From Phaeobacter italicus (GTDB taxonomy: Bacteria; Pseudomonadota; Alphaproteobacteria; Rhodobacterales; Rhodobacteraceae): 64,000 bases of DNA. The DNA lies in assembly GCF_001258055.1 (NCBI RefSeq), contig NZ_CVRM01000032.1, positions 1-64,000 on the forward strand. The letters are read 5' to 3'. The notes beneath the pieces were generated by a model. It was given only the letters and a program-made list of their open reading frames with translations, ran no database searches and had not been told where the DNA came from. A program made the position numbers and the translations under genes. Positions 23,718 through 58,654 of this stretch are shown piece by piece. Position 1 is the first letter of the stretch; every line of letters begins with the position of its first letter.

Positions 23718-24218
23718 TCAGGTTGCCCCCATCCGGGAGCGCAGGGCATTCACCCGGTCGCGCAGATCCAGCAGCTCTTCCAGATCGCCCCCCATACCCT
23801 CAACGATGCAGGCGGTGATCTCTCCCGCTTTGGCGGCCCGCTCTGCACCTGTTTCTGTCAGCTCCAGCAACCGGCTGCGATCATCCTGTGGATTGGGAAC
23901 ACGTCGCAGCAGCTCTGCCTCCTCCATCCTTTTCAGAAGAGGGGTAAGGGTGTTGGTCTCAAGATCCAGCTGCTGGCCAAGCGCCTTGATGGTCTGACCG
24001 GGATTGTGCCGAAGCGAGATCAGGACAAGATACTGCGGATAGGTCAGCCCAAGGGGCGCGAGGAGCGGGCGGTATAGCCGGGTCAGCGCATGGTTGGCGG
24101 AATAGATCGCAAAACACAGCAGGTCGGAAATTTCAGGTCCATCCGGCGGTATGGCCGGTTGGTTTTGCTGTCCCTGAGCGGGGGCATGGCTGATGGGTTT
24201 GTTCGGCGTCTGGGTCAT
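23718..24218 (-). CDS. ohrR: MarR-family peroxide sensor OhrR
   Basis: A 166-residue MarR-type repressor. Cys35, in SDLLCFAIYSANHALTRLY, is at the position of the sensing cysteine of OhrR, which is oxidised by organic hydroperoxides to release DNA. The winged-helix core runs from LTYPQYLVLISLRH to DDRSRLLELTETG. An unusually long, Gln- and Pro-rich N-terminal tail (about 25 residues) precedes it. Divergent from ohr with a 133-bp shared promoter region, the classical arrangement. Confidence 0.9.
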   Translation of the reverse strand: MTQTPNKPISHAPAQGQQNQPAIPPDGPEISDLLCFAIYSANHALTRLYRPLLAPLGLTYPQYLVLISLRHNPGQTIKALGQQLDLETNTLTPLLKRMEEAELLRRVPNPQDDRSRLLELTETGAERAAKAGEITACIVEGMGGDLEELLDLRDRVNALRSRMGAT

Positions 24219-24351: not shown

Positions 24352-24780
24352 ATGAGCGTTTCACCCGTCTATACCGCATTTGCCACTGCCACCGGCGGTC
24401 GCGATGGCAAGGCCACCATTCAGGGCAGCGATCTGGTGATTGATCTGGATCCGCCCAAGGAAATGGGCGGCAAAGGCGAAGGCAACAACCCAGAGCAGCT
24501 CTTTGCGGCCGGCTATGCGGCCTGCTACATCGGCGCCATGAAATTCGCGACCAGCCAGAACGATCAGCTGGCAAAAGTGCCAAATGACGTCTCGGTTGCA
24601 GCCGAAGTTGGCATCGGTCCCCGCGATGAGGGCGGGTTTGGCCTGGTTGTCACCCTCAAGGTTGCCCTGCCCGGCCTCAGCCCGGAAGAAGCACAGGCCG
24701 TTGCGGATGCGGGTCACAAGATCTGCCCCTATTCCAACGCGGTGCGTGGCAATGTGGTTGTGACCACCGAACTGGTCTGA
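24352..24780 (+). CDS. ohr: Organic hydroperoxide resistance protein
   Basis: A thiol peroxidase of the OsmC/Ohr fold, 142 residues, reducing fatty-acid and other organic hydroperoxides with lipoylated protein as reductant. The catalytic pair is Cys58 (GYAACYIGAM) and Cys125 (GHKICPYSNAVRGN). The N-terminal YTAFATATGGRDGKA is typical of Ohr rather than OsmC. AGGAAAGGATC precedes the ATG. Regulated by the divergent OhrR. Confidence 0.95.
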   Translation: MSVSPVYTAFATATGGRDGKATIQGSDLVIDLDPPKEMGGKGEGNNPEQLFAAGYAACYIGAMKFATSQNDQLAKVPNDVSVAAEVGIGPRDEGGFGLVVTLKVALPGLSPEEAQAVADAGHKICPYSNAVRGNVVVTTELV

Positions 24781-24892: not shown

Positions 24893-25759
24893 TCAGCTGC
24901 GCACCAGTTCCTCATATGCTTTGGCGATCTCCTGGGTCAGCTCTCCGACTTCAAAACGGTGCGGACCAATCTCGCCAACCGGTGTGACCTCGGCTGCGGT
25001 GCCTGTCAGCCAGCATTGTTCAAACCCATCCAGCTCTTCCGGCATGATGTGGCGTTCATGCACGGTGATGCCGCGGTCTTTCAGCATGCCGATCACGGTC
25101 TGACGGGTGATGCCATTCAGGAAGCAGTCGGGCTTTGGTGTGTGAACCTCGCCGTCCTTCACGAAGAAGATGTTTGCGCCGGTCGCCTCTGCCACATAGC
25201 CGCGATAGTCCATGAACAGCGCATCCGAGCAGCCCTTGGCCTCCGCCTTGTGCTTGGAGATGGTGCAGATCATGTAGAGACCCGCCGCCTTGGCGTGAAC
25301 CGGGATGGTTTCCGGGCTTGGGCGTTTCCATTCTGCGATGTCGAGCTTGGCACCCTTCATCTTGGCGTCGCCGTAGTATGCGCCCCATCCCCAGACCGCG
25401 ATGGCCATGCGGACCGGGTTTTTCGCCGACGCGACACCCATGTCTTCGCCAGAACCACGCCAGACGATTGCACGCACATACGCGTCCTGCAGGCCAGAGG
25501 CCTTCAGCGTTTCTTCCTTTGCCGCCTCGATCTGGTCGACGGTATAGGGCATCGGCATATCCAGCGCCTCTGCGCTGGCGATCAGACGCTCGGAATGCTC
25601 GCGGCTCTTGAAGATTTTGCCGTTGTAGGCGCGCTCACCCTCAAAGACGGAGGAGGCATAATGCATGGCATGGGTCAGGATGTGGACCTTGGCATCACGC
25701 CATTCGACCATCTCGCCATCCATCCAGATCAAACCGTCACGATCTTCGTATCCCGCCAT
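24893..25759 (-). CDS. ilvE: Branched-chain amino acid aminotransferase
   Basis: A PLP-dependent class IV aminotransferase of 288 residues, transferring amino groups between glutamate and the 2-oxo acids of Leu, Ile and Val. Features include THAMHYASSVFEGERAY, the region VHAKAAGLY with the expected PLP Lys, FMDYRGYVAEATGANIFFV and LTGTAAEVTPVGEI. AAGGAGG precedes the ATG at 25759. Its promoter carries the 25-bp element shared with gltD; a -35 TTGACA and a TATCGA-like -10, 17 bp apart, are visible on the minus strand within and just below that element. Confidence 0.93.
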   Translation of the reverse strand: MAGYEDRDGLIWMDGEMVEWRDAKVHILTHAMHYASSVFEGERAYNGKIFKSREHSERLIASAEALDMPMPYTVDQIEAAKEETLKASGLQDAYVRAIVWRGSGEDMGVASAKNPVRMAIAVWGWGAYYGDAKMKGAKLDIAEWKRPSPETIPVHAKAAGLYMICTISKHKAEAKGCSDALFMDYRGYVAEATGANIFFVKDGEVHTPKPDCFLNGITRQTVIGMLKDRGITVHERHIMPEELDGFEQCWLTGTAAEVTPVGEIGPHRFEVGELTQEIAKAYEELVRS

Positions 25760-25870
25760 GGCGCACCCTCCTTAAGCCTCGCCCAATTTTCAAATGTTGC
25801 GCCAATTACGACCGGTCCGGACATAAAGTTGCGCTAAACCTGCGATTCGATACATCTTCAGACTTGGAAT

Positions 25871-25895
25871 GTCAACAAGGCTGACTTAAAATGAC
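25871..25895 (-). promoter_or_regulatory. Shared 25-bp element, ilvE/petP promoter copy
   Basis: This 25-mer (GTCAACA-AG-GCTGAC-T-TAAAATGAC on the plus strand) matches the element at 55498-55522 upstream of gltD at 22 of 25 positions. Read towards ilvE it ends in TTGACA (complement of 25870-25875), a good -35 hexamer. Seventeen bases further is TATCGA. A regulator bound here would therefore overlap the ilvE -35 region. It also lies 24 bp before the petP start on the other strand. Confidence 0.6.
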
Positions 25896-25918: not shown

Positions 25919-26431
25919 ATGGCAGAAGGGCGACCAGGGCAGGGATTTGGCGGCGAAAGCCTGCTGTTTCTGACGGATGAGCAGTTGCGGCAAGGCATTG
26001 AGGCAATGTTCTTTGCCTATCGCGGGTTCACAGCAGATCCGGACCGGATCCTGGCCGAGATGGCCTATGGGCGCGCGCACCACCGGGCGATCCACTTTAT
26101 CAATCGCGCACCTGGCACGACCGTCAACAATCTCTTGTCGATCCTGGGTGTCACCAAGCAATCGCTCAACCGGGTGCTGCGTGCCCTGATCAGCGACGGG
26201 CTGGTTGAAAGCCGCGTGGGTGTGACCGACAAACGCGAACGCCATCTGTTTCTGACGGACAAGGGACGTGCGCTGGAAACCAGCCTGTCGGATGCGCAGC
26301 GCGCCCGCATGCGCGCCGCGTACAAGGATGCAGGCCCAGAGGCAGTGCAGGGTTTCAAACGGGTTCTGGAAGCAATGATGGATTCCGACATGCGTCGCGC
26401 CTATGCGAAATTGCGGGAGACCGGCGCATGA
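25919..26431 (+). CDS. petP: MarR-family regulator, PetP-like
   Basis: A 170-residue winged-helix protein of MarR type. ATVNN-like TTVNNLLSILGVTKQSLNRVLRALISDGLV is the recognition region and GVTDKRERHLFLTDKGRALE the wing. It overlaps the response regulator gene by 4 bp. The pair matches petP-petR, which in Rhodobacter capsulatus lies beside the bc1 operon and affects its expression; the name rests on that gene pair and overall resemblance. GGGAGA precedes the ATG. petABC lies 12 kb away here. Confidence 0.75.
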   Translation: MAEGRPGQGFGGESLLFLTDEQLRQGIEAMFFAYRGFTADPDRILAEMAYGRAHHRAIHFINRAPGTTVNNLLSILGVTKQSLNRVLRALISDGLVESRVGVTDKRERHLFLTDKGRALETSLSDAQRARMRAAYKDAGPEAVQGFKRVLEAMMDSDMRRAYAKLRETGA

Positions 26432-27129
26432 GCAATTTCGATTCCCATCTGCTGATCGTCGACGACGATGAGCGCATTCGTGGCCTGTTGAAGAAATTCC
26501 TGATGCGCGCCGGTTTTCTGGTGACCGCAGCGCGTGATGCTGCCCATGCGCGTCGGGTGCTGTCAGGGCTCGATTTCGATCTCATCGTGATGGATGTGAT
26601 GATGCCCGGCGAAGATGGCATCTCTCTGACCCGCGCGCTGCGCGAAACCATGAGCACGCCGATCCTTTTGCTGACCGCAAAGGGAGAGACCGAGGATCGT
26701 ATTGAAGGGCTGGAAGCGGGCGCGGATGACTATCTGGCGAAACCCTTTGAGCCCAAGGAGCTGTTGTTGCGGATCAACGCGATCCTGCGCCGCATGCCTG
26801 AACCCACGGCCAAGGACGCAGCCCCCAAGGTCCTGCATCTGGGGCCGATCCGCTATGACATTGAACGCGGCGAGATGTGGCAGGGTGAAGAGCTGATCCG
26901 TCTGACCGGCACCGAAAGCCAGCTGATGAAGATCTTTTCCGCCTGCCCCGGTGAACCGGTCAGCCGCACCAAACTGGTCGAAGATCTGGGGCGCGACCGC
27001 GGTCAGGCACAGGAACGCGCTGTTGATGTTCAGATCACCCGTCTGCGTCGCAAGATCGAACCCAACCCCAAACAGCCGCAATATCTGCAGACGGTGCGGG
27101 GCGCGGGTTATATGCTGGCACCGGATTAA
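26428..27129 (+). CDS. petR: OmpR-family response regulator, PetR-like
   Basis: The 233-residue protein has a receiver domain (residues about 5-120) with acidic pocket VDDDE, phosphorylation site Asp56 (LIVMDVMMP) and the Lys of YLAKPFEP. A C-terminal OmpR winged helix (about 135-230) includes TGTESQLMKIF, RAVDVQITRLRRKIEPNP and TVRGAGYML. No histidine kinase gene lies nearby, as with the R. capsulatus petPR pair. ATGA overlap with petP. Confidence 0.82.
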   Translation: MSNFDSHLLIVDDDERIRGLLKKFLMRAGFLVTAARDAAHARRVLSGLDFDLIVMDVMMPGEDGISLTRALRETMSTPILLLTAKGETEDRIEGLEAGADDYLAKPFEPKELLLRINAILRRMPEPTAKDAAPKVLHLGPIRYDIERGEMWQGEELIRLTGTESQLMKIFSACPGEPVSRTKLVEDLGRDRGQAQERAVDVQITRLRRKIEPNPKQPQYLQTVRGAGYMLAPD

Positions 27130-32855: not shown

Positions 32856-33653
32856 TCAGCGCCCTTTCCACACCGGATCGCGTTTTTCGGCAAAAGCGCG
32901 CGCACCCTCCAGCTGATCCTCGCTATCATAAAGCACATCAACACTGCGCAACTGGCGTTTGGTGATCCGGTTCATGGCGTCCTGGAATTTGCTGTCCTCG
33001 GCATCGCGCACGATTTCCTTGATTGCGGCGTAGACCAGCGGCGGGCCAGAGGCCAGGAGACGGGCCAGTTCCCAAGCGCGATCCATCAGCTGGTCCGCTG
33101 CCACGATCTCATTCACCAGCCCCCAGCGGTTGGCCTCTTCTGCATCAAACCAGCGCCCGGTGAGCAATAGCTCCATCGCGATGTGATAGGGAATGCGTTT
33201 GGGCAGTTTCACACTGGCTGCATCCGCCACGGTGCCAGAGCGGATTTCCGGCAGCGCAAAGGTGGCATGATCGGCAGCAATGATCATGTCCGCAGACAGG
33301 GCCAGCTCCAGCCCGCCGCCACAGGCGATCCCGTTCACCGCGGCAATCACCGGCTTGTTCATGTCGCGCAGCTCCTGCAATCCACCGAACCCGCCGACAC
33401 CATAGTCGCCATCCACCGCATCACCGTCAGCCGCCGCTTTCAGATCCCAACCGGGGCAAAAGAACTTCTCTCCCCCACCCGTCAGGATTGCCACCCTGAG
33501 GTCAGGATCGTCGCGGAAATCGCGGAAGACCTCACCCATGACCTTGCTGGTCGCCAGATCAATGGCGTTGGCCTTGGGTCGGTCCAGCGTCACTTCCAGA
33601 ATGGCGCCGTCGCGGCGGGTTTTCACGGGGCTGCTGCCGGTGTCTTCACTCAT
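32856..33653 (-). CDS. Enoyl-CoA hydratase/carnitinyl-CoA dehydratase-like
   Basis: A crotonase-superfamily protein of 265 residues. Features are the N-terminal LDRPKANAIDLATS, the oxyanion-hole segment GGGEKFFCPGWDLKAAADGD, NGIACGGGLELALSADMIIA and PEIRSGTVADAASVKLPKRI. The latter two read like E. coli CaiD, which hydrates crotonobetainyl-CoA to carnitinyl-CoA. AGGAGGAG precedes the ATG at 33653. It is the last of a minus-strand cluster of CoA enzymes, 50 bp after the acyl-CoA ligase. Substrate inferred only. Confidence 0.78.
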   Translation of the reverse strand: MSEDTGSSPVKTRRDGAILEVTLDRPKANAIDLATSKVMGEVFRDFRDDPDLRVAILTGGGEKFFCPGWDLKAAADGDAVDGDYGVGGFGGLQELRDMNKPVIAAVNGIACGGGLELALSADMIIAADHATFALPEIRSGTVADAASVKLPKRIPYHIAMELLLTGRWFDAEEANRWGLVNEIVAADQLMDRAWELARLLASGPPLVYAAIKEIVRDAEDSKFQDAMNRITKRQLRSVDVLYDSEDQLEGARAFAEKRDPVWKGR

Positions 33654-49392: not shown

Positions 49393-52300
49393 CTATTCCG
49401 CCGGTACGGCTGCTACGTCCAGTGTCAGGGGCTGGGGCAGCTTGTCCAACATCTCGGTCGGGCAAACCTGCAAGAAGTTCGCTTTCTCGCTCTCCCAGTG
49501 CTGGAGAATATCAGCGGCCTTGCGGCTGCCGGTTTCTGCCAGATGACGCTCGACCAGTCCTTTGAGCTGCTGTTCCCAATGCTCCACGCCAACCTGGCAG
49601 GTGACGAGGGATTCCATGTTCATCAGCGTCTCGGCCTTGCCTTCCGGGTCGTAGATATAAGCCATGCCACCGGTCATACCTGCACCAAAGTTGGCGCCAA
49701 TAGAGCCGAGGATCACCGCGACACCGCCGGTCATGTATTCACAACCGCAGGCACCACAGCCTTCGACCACCACGCTGGCACCGGAGTTGCGGACCGCGAA
49801 GCGTTCACCGGCACGACCTGCCGCAAAGAGATAGCCATCGGTTGCACCATAAAGGACGGTGTTGCCAACGATGGTGTTCTCGCTTGCTGTCAGCGGCGAT
49901 GCCATCGGCGGACGTACCACAATGGTACCACCGGACAGACCCTTGCCGACGTAGTCGTTCGCATCGCCCGAAACCTCCAGCTTGAGCCCCGGCGCTGCAA
50001 AGGCACCAAGAGACTGACCAGCAGAGCCCTGCAGCTTTACCGTCAGGTGGTCGGGCTGCAGCGTGTTGCGCATGCCAAAGTTGCGGACAATGTGGCTGGA
50101 TGTACGGGTGCCCACGGTCCGATGTGTGTTCTGAACCGCATAGGACAGCTGCATCTTTTCCCCGTCCTGCAGGAAGCGGGCGGCATCGCGCACGATTTCC
50201 TTGTCCAGAGTGTCCGGCACAGCATTGCGTTCACGATCACGGTTGTAGTCGATGTCATGCGCACCATCGACGGTGATCAACATCGGGTTGAGGTCCAGAT
50301 CATCAAGATGTGCCGAACCACGGGACACCTGCGCCAGCAGATCCGCCCGACCAATCACCTCGTCCAGAGAGCGCGCGCCGATTGAGGCGAGGATCTCGCG
50401 GACTTCCTGTGCGTAGAAGGTGATGAGGTTCACAACCTTGTCCGCGTTGCCGGTGAACTTGCCGCGCAGGGCTTCGTCCTGGGTGCAGACACCAACGGGG
50501 CAGGTGTTGGACTGGCACTGGCGCACCATGATGCACCCCATTGCGATCAGCGCCGCGGTGCCGATGCCGTATTCTTCGGCCCCCAGCATTGCGGCCATCA
50601 CGATGTCACGACCCGTCCGCAGACCACCATCGGTCCGCAGGGTGACCCGATCACGCAGGTTGTTCATCGCCAGAACCTGATGCGCCTCGGTCAGGCCCAT
50701 CTCCCACGGCAGACCCGCGTATTTGATCGAAGTCGCCGGTGACGCGCCGGTGCCACCGTTGTGGCCCGAAATCAGGATGATGTCGGCCTTCGCCTTGGCA
50801 ACGCCCGCAGCAATGGTGCCAACGCCGGAAGACGCCACCAGTTTCACCGTCACCTTGCAGCGCGGGTTGATCTGCTTCAGGTCATAGATCAGCTGCGCCA
50901 GGTCCTCGATCGAGTAGATATCGTGGTGCGGCGGCGGCGAGATCAGCGTCACACCCTTGGTGGAGTGGCGCAGACGGGCAATCAGGTCGGTGACCTTCAT
51001 CCCCGGCAGCTGGCCGCCTTCACCGGGCTTGGCGCCCTGGGCTACCTTGATTTCCAGCTCTTCGCACTGGTTCAGGTATTCGGCTGTCACACCAAAGCGG
51101 CCCGACGCCACCTGCTTGATTTTCGCAGACGGGTTGTCGCCGTTCGGCTCCGGAACGAAGTGCGCCGGATCTTCACCGCCCTCACCAGAGTCGGACTTGG
51201 CGCCGATCCGGTTCATTGCCACGTTCAGCGTCTTGTGCGCCTCGGGGCTCAGCGCGCCCAAGGACATGCCCGGTGTCACGAACCGTTTGCGGATCGAAGT
51301 GATCGATTCCACTTCCTCAATCGGTACGGCCTTGCCCAGCGGCTTGATCTGCAGCAGGTCGCGCAGGTGGATCGGCGGGTTCGATTGCATTTTCGCCGAG
51401 TACTGCTTCCACAACTCATAAGAGGCGCGGTTGCAGGCCATCTGCATCATATGCATGGACGTCGCTTCCCAGGCGTGGGTCTCGCCGGACTTGCGGGCTT
51501 TGTAGAAGCCGCCGATTGGCAGGACATCCTGGGCACCCAACCATGCCTTGGCGTGGATTTCTTCCAGCTTGGTTTGAATACCTGTCACACCGATACCGGA
51601 AATCCGCGAGATCATGCCGGGGAAGTATTCCGCACACATCGCGCGCGAAAGGCCAACCGCCTCAAAGTTCAAGCCACCGCGGTAAGAGGAAATCACCGAG
51701 ATCCCCATCTTGGCCATGATCTTCAACAGGCCCTGGTCGATCGCTTCACGGTAGCGGGCGACGTTCTCGGTCAGGCTGCCGTCCAGCAGGCCGCGCTCGA
51801 TACGGTCGGCGAGCGAATCCTCGGCCAGGTAGGCGTTCACAACGGTTGCGCCACAGCCAATCAACACCGCGAAATAATGCGGATCGATGCATTCAGCAGA
51901 ACGTACGTTGAGCGAGCAGAAGGTACGCAGCCCCTTGCGGGTCAGATGCGAATGCACGGCAGAGGTGGCCAGGATCATCGGCATCGCAACCTTGTCAGCA
52001 TTGGAATGCTGATCGGTCAGAACGATGTGGCCGGCCCCCGAGCTGACGGCCTCTTCGGCTTCGGCGCGGATACGGGCGAGTGCGGCGCTCAGGCTGCCCT
52101 GGCCAGGTTCAAAGCTACAGTCGATCTCTGCCAGAGGTGCGTTCAGGTTTTCGACCAGTTCGTCCCACTGGGCGTTGCCGACAAAGGGGCTCTCAAGGAC
52201 GATGATCTCAGTCTGGGAGCTGTCCTCGTCCAGTACGTTTTTCAGGTTACCAAAGCGCGTCTTCAGCGACATCACGCGATATTCACGCAGGCTGTCGATC

Positions 52301-53925
52301 GGCGGGTTCGTCACCTGAGAGAAGTTCTGACGGAAAAAGTGGCTCAGCGGGCGGTACATCTTGGACAGAACAGCCGACGGGGTGTCATCGCCCATCGAGG
52401 CCAGCGTTTCCTTGCCATCCTCAGCCATCGGCGCGAGGATCTGTTCCAGCTCTTCGATGGTGTAACCGGCAGCGACCTGACGGCGACGCAGCTCATCGCC
52501 GCTGAACAGCGCCTTTTCAGTGACTTTCGCAAGGGTGCTGTCGAGATCGTTGATCTTCTGAACCCAATCACCAAACGGCAGCGCAGCAGCCAGTTTGTCC
52601 TTGATTTCGGTGTCGTGGAACAGCTTGCCCTTTTGCATGTCGACGGCCAGCATCTGACCGGGGCCAAGCGCGCCTTTTTCGACAACGGTGGCCTCGTCAA
52701 TCGGGACCATCCCCGCCTCAGAGCCCGCAATCACAAGCCCATCACCGGTCACGACATAACGCATCGGGCGCAGACCGTTGCGATCAAGGCCCGCACAAAC
52801 CCAGCGACCATCCGTCATCGCCAGCGCAGCAGGGCCGTCCCACGGTTCCATAACGGAGTTGCAGTAGGAATACATATCCCGCCAGGCTTGCGGCAGTTCC
52901 ACCGCCTGCTTGGACCAGCTTTCGGGCACCAGCATGGTTTTAGCCATCGGCGCAGAACGGCCCGCCCGCACCAGAACCTCAAACACCGAATCCAGCGCAG
53001 CAGAGTCGGACGAACCGCTCGCCACGATCGGCTTGATGTCCTCGGCGTAGTCGCCAAAGGTGGACGAGGCCATGCGGATTTCGTGGCTCTTCATCCAGTT
53101 CAGGTTGCCCTTGAGGGTATTCACCTCGCCGTTGTGGGCCAGCATGCGGAACGGCTGAGCAAGCCACCACTGAGGGAAAGTGTTCGTGGAATAGCGCTGG
53201 TGGTAGATCGCAAAGGCGCTTTCGAACCGCTCGTCCATCAGGTCGGGGTAAAAGACTGCAACCTGCTCTGCGAGCATCATGCCCTTGTAGATGATCGACC
53301 GGCAGGACAGGGATGCGATGTACAGCTGACCAACCTGCGCAGCAGCGGCCGCTTTTTCGATCCGACGGCGGATAACATAAAGCTCGCGCTCAAAGGTTTC
53401 TTCGTCCACACCTTTGGAGTTGGAGATCAGGATCTGCTCGATCTCCGGACGGGTCGCATTTGCTTTTTCGCCCAGGCAGGTCACATCGACCGGCACATGG
53501 CGCCAGCCGTAGATGTAATAGCCCATCCGCAGAACTTCTGTTTCCACGATGGTCCGGCAGCGCTCCTGCGCGCCGAAGTCGGTGCGCGGCAGGAAGACCT
53601 GACCAACGGCCAGCAGCTGATCTTCGCGTGGCTCGTGGCCAGTGCGGCGGACCTGATCATAAAAGAAAGGTGCCGGAATTTGCACGTGGATGCCCGCGCC
53701 ATCGCCGGTCTTGCCGTCGGCATCAACTGCGCCGCGGTGCCAGATTGCTTTCAGCGCGTCGATACCCGCCTCGACAACCTTCCGGCTGCGTGCGCCATCG
53801 ACGGACACCACAAGGCCAACCCCGCAGGACGAATGCTCTTCTTCCTCGGCATAGAGACCGTTTTCGGCCATCCACTTGCGCTTGGCTTCTTCGGCGCGTG
53901 CCCAGTCTGCATCAAATTTTGTCAT
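49393..53925 (-). CDS. gltB: Glutamate synthase (NADPH), large subunit
   Basis: The 1510-residue flavoenzyme converts glutamine and 2-oxoglutarate to two glutamates. A short propeptide precedes catalytic Cys34 (EEHSSCGVGLVVS), the glutamine amidotransferase nucleophile after processing. The central domain and FMN-binding synthase domain (about 850-1220; ISPPPHHDIYSIEDLAQLIY, ISGHNGGTGASPATSIKYAG) follow. The 3Fe-4S cysteines are in CIMVRQCQSNTCPVGVC, and a GXGXG beta-helix closes the chain. GGGAG precedes the ATG at 53925. Downstream of gltD by 64 bp. Length is that of the family. Confidence 0.97.
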   Translation of the reverse strand: MTKFDADWARAEEAKRKWMAENGLYAEEEEHSSCGVGLVVSVDGARSRKVVEAGIDALKAIWHRGAVDADGKTGDGAGIHVQIPAPFFYDQVRRTGHEPREDQLLAVGQVFLPRTDFGAQERCRTIVETEVLRMGYYIYGWRHVPVDVTCLGEKANATRPEIEQILISNSKGVDEETFERELYVIRRRIEKAAAAAQVGQLYIASLSCRSIIYKGMMLAEQVAVFYPDLMDERFESAFAIYHQRYSTNTFPQWWLAQPFRMLAHNGEVNTLKGNLNWMKSHEIRMASSTFGDYAEDIKPIVASGSSDSAALDSVFEVLVRAGRSAPMAKTMLVPESWSKQAVELPQAWRDMYSYCNSVMEPWDGPAALAMTDGRWVCAGLDRNGLRPMRYVVTGDGLVIAGSEAGMVPIDEATVVEKGALGPGQMLAVDMQKGKLFHDTEIKDKLAAALPFGDWVQKINDLDSTLAKVTEKALFSGDELRRRQVAAGYTIEELEQILAPMAEDGKETLASMGDDTPSAVLSKMYRPLSHFFRQNFSQVTNPPIDSLREYRVMSLKTRFGNLKNVLDEDSSQTEIIVLESPFVGNAQWDELVENLNAPLAEIDCSFEPGQGSLSAALARIRAEAEEAVSSGAGHIVLTDQHSNADKVAMPMILATSAVHSHLTRKGLRTFCSLNVRSAECIDPHYFAVLIGCGATVVNAYLAEDSLADRIERGLLDGSLTENVARYREAIDQGLLKIMAKMGISVISSYRGGLNFEAVGLSRAMCAEYFPGMISRISGIGVTGIQTKLEEIHAKAWLGAQDVLPIGGFYKARKSGETHAWEATSMHMMQMACNRASYELWKQYSAKMQSNPPIHLRDLLQIKPLGKAVPIEEVESITSIRKRFVTPGMSLGALSPEAHKTLNVAMNRIGAKSDSGEGGEDPAHFVPEPNGDNPSAKIKQVASGRFGVTAEYLNQCEELEIKVAQGAKPGEGGQLPGMKVTDLIARLRHSTKGVTLISPPPHHDIYSIEDLAQLIYDLKQINPRCKVTVKLVASSGVGTIAAGVAKAKADIILISGHNGGTGASPATSIKYAGLPWEMGLTEAHQVLAMNNLRDRVTLRTDGGLRTGRDIVMAAMLGAEEYGIGTAALIAMGCIMVRQCQSNTCPVGVCTQDEALRGKFTGNADKVVNLITFYAQEVREILASIGARSLDEVIGRADLLAQVSRGSAHLDDLDLNPMLITVDGAHDIDYNRDRERNAVPDTLDKEIVRDAARFLQDGEKMQLSYAVQNTHRTVGTRTSSHIVRNFGMRNTLQPDHLTVKLQGSAGQSLGAFAAPGLKLEVSGDANDYVGKGLSGGTIVVRPPMASPLTASENTIVGNTVLYGATDGYLFAAGRAGERFAVRNSGASVVVEGCGACGCEYMTGGVAVILGSIGANFGAGMTGGMAYIYDPEGKAETLMNMESLVTCQVGVEHWEQQLKGLVERHLAETGSRKAADILQHWESEKANFLQVCPTEMLDKLPQPLTLDVAAVPAE

Positions 53926-53989
53926 ATCATTGCTCCCGTTCCGGTGGGCGGCCCTGCAAGGGCTGCGCCTGCCCGGTAGAATATCTGTC

Positions 53990-55435
53990 TTACTCAGCGG
54001 CGATGCTGCTGGCGGCGGCGTCAAAGCGGCTCAGGATGGCGTCGGCACAATCACGGCCGTCCTTGATGGCCCAGACCACCAGCGACGCGCCACGTACGAT
54101 GTCACCCACGGCGTAGACCCCGTCGAGCTCGGTCGCGCCGGTCTGGAAGGCTGCTTTGATCGTGCCCCAGCGGGTCACAGGCAGTTCAGGCTGGTCCCAG
54201 AGGGTCGGCAGGTCTTCCGGCTCAAACCCAAGCGCCTTAATCACGAGATCGGCTGGTTCGATGTAGTCAGCGCCTTCGATCACTTCGGGGGCCTGACGGC
54301 CGGATGCATCCGGCTGGCCCAGACGCATTTTCTGCACCATCACGCCCGCAACCTTGCCGCCCTCATCGGTGAAGCCCTTGGGCGCCGACAGCCATTCGAA
54401 CACCACGCCTTCTTCCTCGGCGTTTTGGGTTTCCCGCTGCGAGCCCGGCATATTGGCGCGGTCACGGCGATAGAGACATTTGACAGAGGTCGCGCCCTGA
54501 CGAATTGAGGTCCGCACGCAATCCATCGCGGTATCACCGCCACCGATCACTACAACGCGCTTGCCATCGGCGTTCAGCGTGCCGTTGTCGAATTCCTCGA
54601 TGCTGTCACCAAAGTTCGACGCTTTGTTCGATACGGTCAGGAAATCAATCGCCTTGACGATGCCGGTGGCACCGGAGCCCGGCATTTCCAGATCGCGGGA
54701 TTTGTAGACACCCGTCGCGATGATGACGGCATCATGTTTCGCGCGGATATCGTCAAAGGAGATATCCTGTCCGACGTTGCAGTTCATTATGAACTCAACC
54801 CCACCATCAGCCAGCAGCTGATTGCGGCGCATCACCACGTCCTTTTCCAGCTTGAACCCCGGAATCCCGTAGGTGAGCAGCCCGCCAGCGCGGTCGTAAC
54901 GATCATAGATGGTGACCTTAACACCTGCGCGACGCAGCATGTCAGCTGCCGCCAGACCGCCGGGACCTGCGCCGATGATCCCTACGGACTCGCTGCGTTC
55001 CTGCGCCGGTTTGATCGGCTGCACCCAGCCCTGATCCCAAGCGGTATCGGTGATGTATTTCTCCACCGCGCCGATGGTCACGGTACCGTGGCCGGATTGT
55101 TCGATCACACAGTTTCCTTCGCACAGGCGGTCCTGCGGGCAGATGCGGCCACAGATCTCTGGGAAGGTATTGGTCGCCTGGCTGGTCTCATAGGCCTCTT
55201 GCAGGCGGCCTGTCGCCGTCAGGCGGAGCCAGTCGGGGATATTGTTGTGCAGCGGGCAGTGTGACTGACAATAAGGGACACCACACTGGCTGCAGCGGCT
55301 TGCCTGTTCCTCGGCCTTGGCGGCCGCGAATTCAGCGTAGATTTCGTTGAAATCTTCCTTGCGATCCTCTGCGGCCCGCTTGTTGGGCATGTCGCGATCG
55401 ATCTGCACGAATTTGAGCATCGGTTGCTTGGCCAC
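53990..55435 (-). CDS. gltD: Glutamate synthase (NADPH), small subunit
   Basis: The 481-residue FAD protein passes electrons from NADPH to GltB. N-terminal 4Fe-4S cysteines are in SRCSQCGVPYCQSHCPLHN and CGRICPQDRLCEGNC. The FAD site is GIIGAGPGGLAAADMLRRAG (about 151-170), the NADPH site VVVIGGGDTAMDCVRT (about 288-303), and GVYAVGDIVRGASLVVWAI ends the FAD fold. GTG start at 55435 with GGAG upstream. First gene of gltDB, whose promoter contains the 25-bp element shared with ilvE. Confidence 0.96.
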   Translation of the reverse strand: MAKQPMLKFVQIDRDMPNKRAAEDRKEDFNEIYAEFAAAKAEEQASRCSQCGVPYCQSHCPLHNNIPDWLRLTATGRLQEAYETSQATNTFPEICGRICPQDRLCEGNCVIEQSGHGTVTIGAVEKYITDTAWDQGWVQPIKPAQERSESVGIIGAGPGGLAAADMLRRAGVKVTIYDRYDRAGGLLTYGIPGFKLEKDVVMRRNQLLADGGVEFIMNCNVGQDISFDDIRAKHDAVIIATGVYKSRDLEMPGSGATGIVKAIDFLTVSNKASNFGDSIEEFDNGTLNADGKRVVVIGGGDTAMDCVRTSIRQGATSVKCLYRRDRANMPGSQRETQNAEEEGVVFEWLSAPKGFTDEGGKVAGVMVQKMRLGQPDASGRQAPEVIEGADYIEPADLVIKALGFEPEDLPTLWDQPELPVTRWGTIKAAFQTGATELDGVYAVGDIVRGASLVVWAIKDGRDCADAILSRFDAAASSIAAE

Positions 55436-55497: not shown

Positions 55498-55576
55498 GTC
55501 AACATTGCTGACCTAAAATGACAGCAGTTACCTGCCTGATACCCTCTCTGGCGGAAATGTACAGAAATTTTAGGTC
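55498..55576. promoter_or_regulatory. Shared 25-bp element, gltD/uppP promoter copy, with inverted second half-site
   Basis: The 25-mer at 55498-55522 matches the ilvE/petP element (25871-25895) at 22 of 25 positions. Its GACCTAAAAT (55510-55519) recurs as perfect complement ATTTTAGGTC at 55567-55576. Read towards gltD the element ends in TTGACT, a possible -35 hexamer 63 bp before the gltD start. The position between divergent gltD and uppP and the reuse near ilvE suggest a shared nitrogen or amino-acid regulator. Confidence 0.6.
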
Positions 55577-55673: not shown

Positions 55674-56480
55674 ATGCCCCTTTTCCAACTGATCCTCATC
55701 GCCCTGATTCAGGGAATTACCGAGTTTCTGCCGGTCTCCTCCTCCGGACACCTCATTTTGCTGCCTGGCCTGACAGGGCTGGAGGACCAGGGGCAGGTGA
55801 TCGACGTCGCTGTCCATGTTGGCACCCTTGCCGCTGTTGTCCTTTTCTTCTGGAAGGACGTGCGTGAGGGACTGATAGGCCTGCCCCGTGCCCTCACCGG
55901 CAAGACAGATACGCCCGGCGCGCAACTGGCGATGGGGCTGATCATCGCAACCATTCCAACTGTTCTGTTTGGTGCGTTCCTGCATTTCTCCGGGCTCAGC
56001 GATGCCCTGCGCTCCATCACCGTTATCGGCTGGACGATGTTGGGGTTTGGAATCGTGCTGTATTTTGCCGACAAATTCGGCCGCACAGGCAAAACGGTTG
56101 AGGACTGGAGACCCAAAGACGCGCTGATCATGGGGCTGTGGCAGATGCTGGCGCTGATTCCCGGCACCTCGCGGTCAGGCATCACCATCACCGGCGCTCG
56201 GCAGCTGGGCTATGCGCGACTGGATGCGGCACGGATCTCCATGCTCATGTCGATCCCCACAATCATCGCCTCCGGTGTATTGCTCGGCGCAGAAGTCGCC
56301 ATCGAAGCCAATGCCAACGTCCTGCGAGACGCTGCCATTGCTGCCGGGTTGTCGATGCTGGCCGCGCTGGCGGCGCTGGCCCTCATGATGCGGCTTCTGC
56401 GGTCCGTCAGTTTCACGCCATACGTAATCTACCGAGTGATCCTTGGCCTCGTCCTGCTGAGCATCGCCTATCAGGGCTGA
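55674..56480 (+). CDS. uppP: Undecaprenyl-diphosphatase (UppP/BacA)
   Basis: An integral membrane phosphatase of 268 residues recycling undecaprenyl diphosphate to the monophosphate carrier for peptidoglycan and LPS. The two active-site motifs are ITEFLPVSSSGHLIL (about 16-30) and PGTSRSGITITGARQLGYAR (about 162-181). Eight hydrophobic helices are expected. The ATG at 55674 fits; divergent from gltD. Confidence 0.96.
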   Translation: MPLFQLILIALIQGITEFLPVSSSGHLILLPGLTGLEDQGQVIDVAVHVGTLAAVVLFFWKDVREGLIGLPRALTGKTDTPGAQLAMGLIIATIPTVLFGAFLHFSGLSDALRSITVIGWTMLGFGIVLYFADKFGRTGKTVEDWRPKDALIMGLWQMLALIPGTSRSGITITGARQLGYARLDAARISMLMSIPTIIASGVLLGAEVAIEANANVLRDAAIAAGLSMLAALAALALMMRLLRSVSFTPYVIYRVILGLVLLSIAYQG

Positions 56481-58281: not shown

Positions 58282-58368
58282 GCCCAGGTGGCGGAATTGG
58301 TAGACGCGCTAGCTTCAGGTGCTAGTGTCCGTATGGACGTGGAGGTTCGAGTCCTCTCCTGGGCACCA
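58282..58368 (+). tRNA. tRNA-Leu (anticodon CAG), copy 1
   Basis: 87 bases including CCA. GCCCAGG pairs with CCTGGGC; the D-arm has GGCGGAATTGGTAGACGCG typical of leucine tRNAs. The loop TTCAGGT gives CAG, a long variable arm (TGTCCGTATGGACG) follows, then GGTTCGAGTCC. Confidence 0.96.
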
Positions 58369-58567: not shown

Positions 58568-58654
58568 GCCCAGGTGGCGGAATTGGTAGACGCGCTAGCT
58601 TCAGGTGCTAGTGTCCGTATGGACGTGGAGGTTCGAGTCCTCTCCTGGGCACCA
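58568..58654 (+). tRNA. tRNA-Leu (anticodon CAG), copy 2
   Basis: Identical to copy 1 over all 87 bases, including the encoded CCA at 58652-58654. Confidence 0.96.

Follow-up and report, generated by a model that had tools for sequence, protein, structure and literature searches.

A palindromic element at the ilvE and gltD promoters of Alphaproteobacteria as a predicted operator of the MarR-family protein PetP

Autoregulated divergent operators of the MarR, MexR and OhrR type are an already known kind of regulatory arrangement. In Escherichia coli, the feast/famine regulator Lrp acts on gltBDF and ilvIH through sites that are 15-bp palindromes, and the sites of OmpR-type regulators are usually direct repeats. 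Two related systems are the PetP/PetR pair of Rhodobacter capsulatus, where PetR is described as needed for bc1 expression (the reference cited for the pair is Tokito and Daldal, 1992), and NtrC, which controls gltBD in some alphaproteobacteria (PMC5343134). No link of the R. capsulatus pair to ilvE or gltD was found in passages of PMC5343134, PMC12421884, PMC9603854 and PMC3616918, and neither ilvE and gltD as PetP targets nor a regulon joining the three is named in the titles and abstract openings of the open-licence PMC literature among the matches listed.

Here we describe a conserved palindromic element from a 64,000-nucleotide stretch of Phaeobacter italicus DNA (the window; positions 1 to 64,000 of contig NZ_CVRM01000032.1, to which the coordinates below refer unless a locus is given), which on sequence evidence probably serves as the operator for PetP, the MarR-family product of a gene divergent from the branched-chain amino acid aminotransferase gene ilvE. 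With the MarR/MexR/OhrR-type systems, PetP shares the MarR fold, the position of the regulator gene beside a palindromic operator and the overlap of that operator with divergent promoter elements (on the petP side, those of a predicted promoter); it differs from them in that its predicted targets are an amino-acid biosynthesis gene, ilvE, and, through an unlinked copy of the site, glutamate synthase, an association that is kept class-wide. Like the E. coli Lrp regulon, the proposed PetP regulon would join branched-chain amino acid genes to glutamate synthase, but the predicted regulator is of the MarR type, with few sites per genome under the strict patterns used. PetP and PetR are the same kinds of adjacent regulators as their R. 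capsulatus counterparts, the likeness being one of name, and the name petP was given in the earlier note and here by position and family. NtrC has the target gltBD in common with the predicted PetP regulon but belongs to a different family. If the prediction holds, a conserved MarR protein gains an operator and targets, and, throughout a large class of bacteria, the step that supplies glutamate would be connected to the transamination of branched-chain amino acids.

Two copies of the element and the promoter region between ilvE and petP

The two copies, GTCAACAAGGCTGACTTAAAATGAC at 25871-25895 and GTCAACATTGCTGACCTAAAATGAC at 55498-55522, are identical at 22 of 25 bases, with mismatches at positions 8, 9 and 16; the former lies between the divergent genes ilvE (minus strand) and petP (plus strand), the latter between gltD (minus) and uppP (plus). 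The coordinates, the layout of the mismatches and the divergent settings agree with an earlier note on this DNA, and the gene families at both loci were checked with NCBIfam and Pfam. By itself, a 22/25 pairwise match is near the chance level and is weak evidence, since the window contains two more non-tRNA pairs with the same degree of similarity. Altogether, the same-strand 25-mer pairs with at least 22/25 identities in the window form nine clusters, one of which is the ilvE/gltD pair; another is a pair within petP, a third matches a place in gltB to position 32996, and the remaining six are tRNA genes or repeated tRNA flanks (these six were assigned by reading, with ARAGORN backing two tRNA-Leu genes in the 58.2-58.7 kb clusters and the 469/7900 pair being named by eye). 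The two tRNA-Leu (CAG) genes (58282-58368 and 58568-58654) are tandem, with starts 286 bp apart and repeated upstream flanks. In shuffled sequence, the consensus pattern of the two sites, which was derived from those same sites, has an expected count of 0.00 for the window. Thus, we accept the element as real because it is conserved elsewhere, not because of the pairwise match. A scan of the P. italicus genome with the full 25-mer yielded just the two known places and one with 3 mismatches, so the full-length element was dropped as the functional unit in favor of a shorter palindrome.

The core of the element is the palindrome GTCARY-NNN-RYTGAC; both copies read GTCAGC-NNN-GTTGAC on the minus strand, an imperfect palindrome with A/T-rich flanks. 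Between ilvE and petP, this predicted operator (25871-25885, minus strand GTCAGC-CTT-GTTGAC) occupies a fixed position within the family's ilvE promoter: one of its halves plus one base makes up the -35 box TTGACA (25870-25875, minus strand), and the -10 box TATCGA, recognized from the sequence and the family alignment, is located at 25847-25852 (minus strand). The proposed target, ilvE, occupies 24893-25759 on the minus strand (NCBIfam/Pfam). On the plus strand, petP (25919-26431), which encodes the proposed binder, a MarR-family transcription factor by Pfam, AlphaFold2 and Foldseek, is followed at its 3' end by petR (26428-27129), the gene for an OmpR-type response regulator (NCBIfam/Pfam). 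A second MarR-type gene (23718-24218, minus strand), divergent from an Ohr-like gene (24352-24780, plus strand), lies near ilvE and petP; both were named by eye.

The layout of this region was compared across 80 named petP loci, the best 80 of 549 confirmed candidates among the relatives. In all 80, ilvE is divergent from petP with a counterpart of the site between them, petR comes after petP, and the top match to TTARGTCAGCNNNGTTGAC in the DNA upstream of petP has 0-4 mismatches; the distance from the site to the petP start ranges from 28 to 75 bp, with a median of 31. The family consensus at ilvE is AgttTAnGTCAGcgTTgTTGACATTCCAAG, followed by the -10 box TATCGA, and a TAT[AC][GA]A hexamer is found 17 bp past TTGACA in 74 of the 80 loci (the search missed the hexamer in 6). 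The description of the element in the earlier note as ending with a -35-like hexamer toward the minus-strand gene stands at ilvE, where the spacing to the -10-like hexamer is the 17 bp just given, but probably fails for TTGACT at gltD (see below). In the opposite direction, TTGGAA (25864-25869, plus strand), within the family-conserved ATTCCAAG block, and TAAAAT (25887-25892, plus strand) are the predicted -35 and -10 elements of petP; together, TTGGAA-N17-TAAAAT (25864-25892) resembles a petP promoter in which the palindrome would occupy the 17-bp spacer.

Co-occurrence of the site with petP and its counterpart at gltD

The distribution of the site was assessed in a sample of 115 alphaproteobacterial genomes, nearly all one per family, which were searched for ilvE and petP; for the 81 genomes besides P. 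italicus with an ilvE match, the upstream DNA was taken and the petP profile was run on it. A petP match was detected upstream of ilvE in 54 of the 81 genomes; in 53 of them, petP and ilvE are on opposite strands. The core, with at most one mismatch in the 350 bp upstream of ilvE, is present in 48 of the 54 genomes with a petP match as against 2 of the 27 without (Fisher p 4e-13, a value that, like the other Fisher value given below, overstates independence because genomes of one class share ancestry), and mononucleotide-shuffled ilvE upstream regions reach this level at 0.9%. Among the six petP matches without a site, two (G201 and G172) are weak and doubtful as petP, and four (G236, G219, G189 and G147) are neither. 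In genomes that lack petP but keep petR next to ilvE, the site is either lost (G178, G238) or degenerate, with one mismatch (G151, G173). A matrix derived from ilvE sites reaches p <= 0.05 in 5 of the 27 petP-less ilvE upstream regions, which is above chance; two of these are the degenerate sites in G151 and G173. When petP is located away from ilvE, a near-site is found beside it in G136 and none in G165, G159, G150 and G208.

The second copy of the predicted operator (55498-55512, minus strand GTCAGC-AAT-GTTGAC) precedes gltD (53990-55435, minus strand; NCBIfam/Pfam), the proposed target, which encodes the glutamate synthase small subunit and is followed by gltB (49393-54024, minus strand; named by eye). 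The divergent neighbor on the other side is uppP (55674-56480, plus strand), the gene for undecaprenyl-diphosphate phosphatase (NCBIfam/Pfam). A counterpart is located upstream of gltD in the relatives: the best WAGGTCAG-N5-YTGACTTTT window lies 79-90 bp upstream of the start of the gltD match, with 0-2 mismatches, in 30 of 30 family genomes, these being the 30 best gltD matches among 120 family genomes (29 were used for the consensus), to which the pattern itself was fitted by eye. An alignment of 29 gltD promoters contains a conserved -10-like TAaa.a about 22 bp beyond TTGACT, and the -10 element is ambiguous in the window itself; given this spacing, TTGACT is unlikely to be a standard -35 box.

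Because the gltD pattern was fitted to its own loci, a matrix trained solely on 47 ilvE sites from outside the family served as the independent test; it was run on the 350 bp upstream of gltD, with p values from dinucleotide shuffles. In the 29 class genomes with the best gltD matches after P. italicus, all of which have a petP match and one of which (G146) belongs to the family of the window, the matrix reaches p <= 0.05 in 20, finds no significant site in these 350 bp in the other 9, and scores above the coding stretch of the same gene in all 29. It was further run on 20 of the remaining 23 gltD-bearing genomes (G150, G198 and G208 being outside the run), where p <= 0.05 was obtained in 7 of the 8 genomes with petP, 1 of the 10 petP-less genomes and 1 of the 2 that are ambiguous. 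Combined, and leaving out the ambiguous G172 and G201, a gltD site is present in 27 of 37 petP-bearing versus 1 of 10 petP-less genomes (Fisher p 5e-4). A good gltD site is present in the petP-less genome G185, and the pattern identifies a gltD-upstream site in G198, an incomplete genome without a petP match. The conservation at the ilvE and gltD promoters of relatives that the earlier note called for is thus found, in 80/80 named loci and 48/54 class genomes for ilvE and in 30/30 family and 27/37 class genomes for gltD, and its suggestion that a single regulator of amino-nitrogen metabolism uses the element as its operator is consistent with these counts.

PetP as the predicted binder and the alternatives

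PetP scores above the Pfam cut-offs for both MarR_2 (43.3 bits, cut-off 27) and MarR (26, cut-off 24.6). Its AlphaFold2 model (pLDDT 87.4), in which a helix at residues 80-92 is followed by a two-strand wing, has MarR-family proteins as its top Foldseek matches in the PDB; a sequence search found no close relative with a solved structure (best E 7e-07). In 39 sequences drawn from within the family and across the class, T79, K80, Q81, S82, L83, R85, V86 and L87, which are at or in the predicted recognition helix, are invariant, as would be expected if the DNA site is likewise conserved. The conserved divergent neighbor and the co-loss of site and gene favor PetP as the binder.

From this combination we infer that PetP binds the site, represses ilvE and petP and affects gltD in a direction that can be proposed from the position of the site there. 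In a PetP dimer, each of the two recognition helices (residues ~80-92) would contact one half of wTwAnGTCARY-NNN-RYTGACnTwA. Since one half-site is the ilvE -35 box, bound PetP would block RNA polymerase at ilvE, and because, in the P. italicus family, the predicted petP promoter on the other strand has the site as its spacer, PetP may also repress its own gene there. The copy at gltD would put glutamate synthase (gltDB) under PetP, so that the supply of glutamate and a glutamate-dependent branched-chain transaminase would be controlled jointly. At gltD, the palindrome is about 5 bp further from the -10 element than at ilvE and might lie just upstream of a weak -35 element, an activator-like position, which would be compatible with activation by PetP. 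The ligand is perhaps an amino acid or a 2-oxo acid. A broader and considerably more speculative possibility is that PetP regulates amino-nitrogen metabolism throughout the class and functionally parallels enteric Lrp, to which it is unrelated. In this reading, PetP would repress ilvE and petP and switch glutamate synthase, probably with the reverse effect given the activator-like position of the gltD site, and in some lineages its control would extend to glnD, a LysE-type exporter and indolepyruvate oxidoreductase.

Among the alternatives, an Lrp/AsnC-type regulator binding the palindrome at ilvE and gltD, as proposed in the earlier note, is unlikely, even though the targets match the enteric Lrp regulon, the 15-bp length of the palindrome is suitable and 17 AsnC-domain matches are present in the P. 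italicus genome. Against this, the presence of the site follows the adjacent petP in the class comparison (48/54 versus 2/27), and none of the 17 AsnC-domain loci has the core with at most one mismatch within ~3 kb around, a result that bears on autoregulation alone. Similarly improbable is a further, unlinked transcription factor whose distribution parallels that of petP by chance: such a factor would fit the sites that persist without petP (at ilvE in G151 and G173, at gltD in G185), but the conserved divergent neighbor and the co-loss favor PetP. Binding by PetR, whose gene follows petP in all 80 named loci, appears very unlikely given that the element is a palindrome rather than a direct repeat, and that where petR is kept beside ilvE without petP the site is nevertheless lost or degenerate. 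Finally, that there is no operator and the two copies are chance look-alikes of two strong -35 regions is scarcely credible: the window does hold two further non-tRNA pairs of equal similarity, but the palindromy, the class-wide conservation and the transfer of the ilvE matrix to gltD speak against it, and conservation beyond the -35 hexamer contradicts it.

Other occurrences of the motif

When the 115 class genomes were scanned with TNNGTCARYNNNRYTGACNNA allowing no mismatches, 48 genomes were matched at 61 places (hand count), compared with 2 control places. By their coordinates, 38 of the 61 fall in the interval between ilvE and petP, 6 precede gltD or gltB, and 17 are elsewhere; several of the latter are inside coding sequence, and single places occur just upstream of glnD (G133), a LysE-type exporter gene (G165) and an indolepyruvate ferredoxin oxidoreductase gene (G203), each in one genome and possibly a chance match. 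A homologue of cysteine/cystathionine synthase (G206, L328) was rejected as a target, the site being beyond the 3' end of the gene.

With TTARGTCAGCNNNGTTGAC and one mismatch allowed, 68 of the 120 family genomes were matched at 88 places (a hand count in which the palindrome may be counted on both strands), versus 15 control places in 12 genomes. In 38 family regions, picked for matches unlike the commonest ilvE form and hence no random sample, the site is upstream of ilvE in 14, upstream of gltD in 6 and elsewhere in 18 (hand count). These 18 include L132, where the site is downstream, not upstream, of gltD and was left out of the gltD promoter sites, and two PetP-like sites upstream of a PLP-type aminotransferase gene (L134, position 2500; L124, position 2542); in one of these two cases the site also precedes a divergent gene for a GntR-type regulator (both kinds of gene were named by eye). 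Sites at unrelated or coding positions were seen, for example, at L135, L136, L162, L174, L331-L333, L335 and L337.

Within the genus, the strict core identifies, by coordinates and neighbors, the ilvE site in 7 of 7 genomes, the gltD site in 6 of 7 (it is absent from G120, which is 92% complete) and a plasmid-type site in 6 of 7. A looser version of the core, GTCA-N7-TGAC flanked by an outer T and A, gives 4-6 places in each of the 7 genomes versus 0-5 control places and was set aside as too noisy for extending the regulon. The plasmid-type sites, comprising two on the P. italicus contig G000:C12 with no obvious tie to amino-nitrogen and their counterparts in the genus, were considered as a third target and excluded because they overlap a separate, longer palindrome whose core also adjoins a ruvB-like gene in two relatives.

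This 32-bp palindrome, which contains TGTTTCGC-AC-GCGAAACA (with an AT center in one copy), overlaps a PetP-like palindrome at L114 2682-2713 and 11827-11858 on G000:C12, a contig that resembles a plasmid and carries genes for replication and partition (identified by eye). The 32-bp palindrome may be a partition site or another operator site. It is also present in L129, L176 and L179, and its core alone in L172 and L177. On the same contig, an IS66-type transposase cluster (L114 2909-4993, by eye) adjoins a 23-bp palindrome with perfect 10-bp arms (L114 2707-2729).
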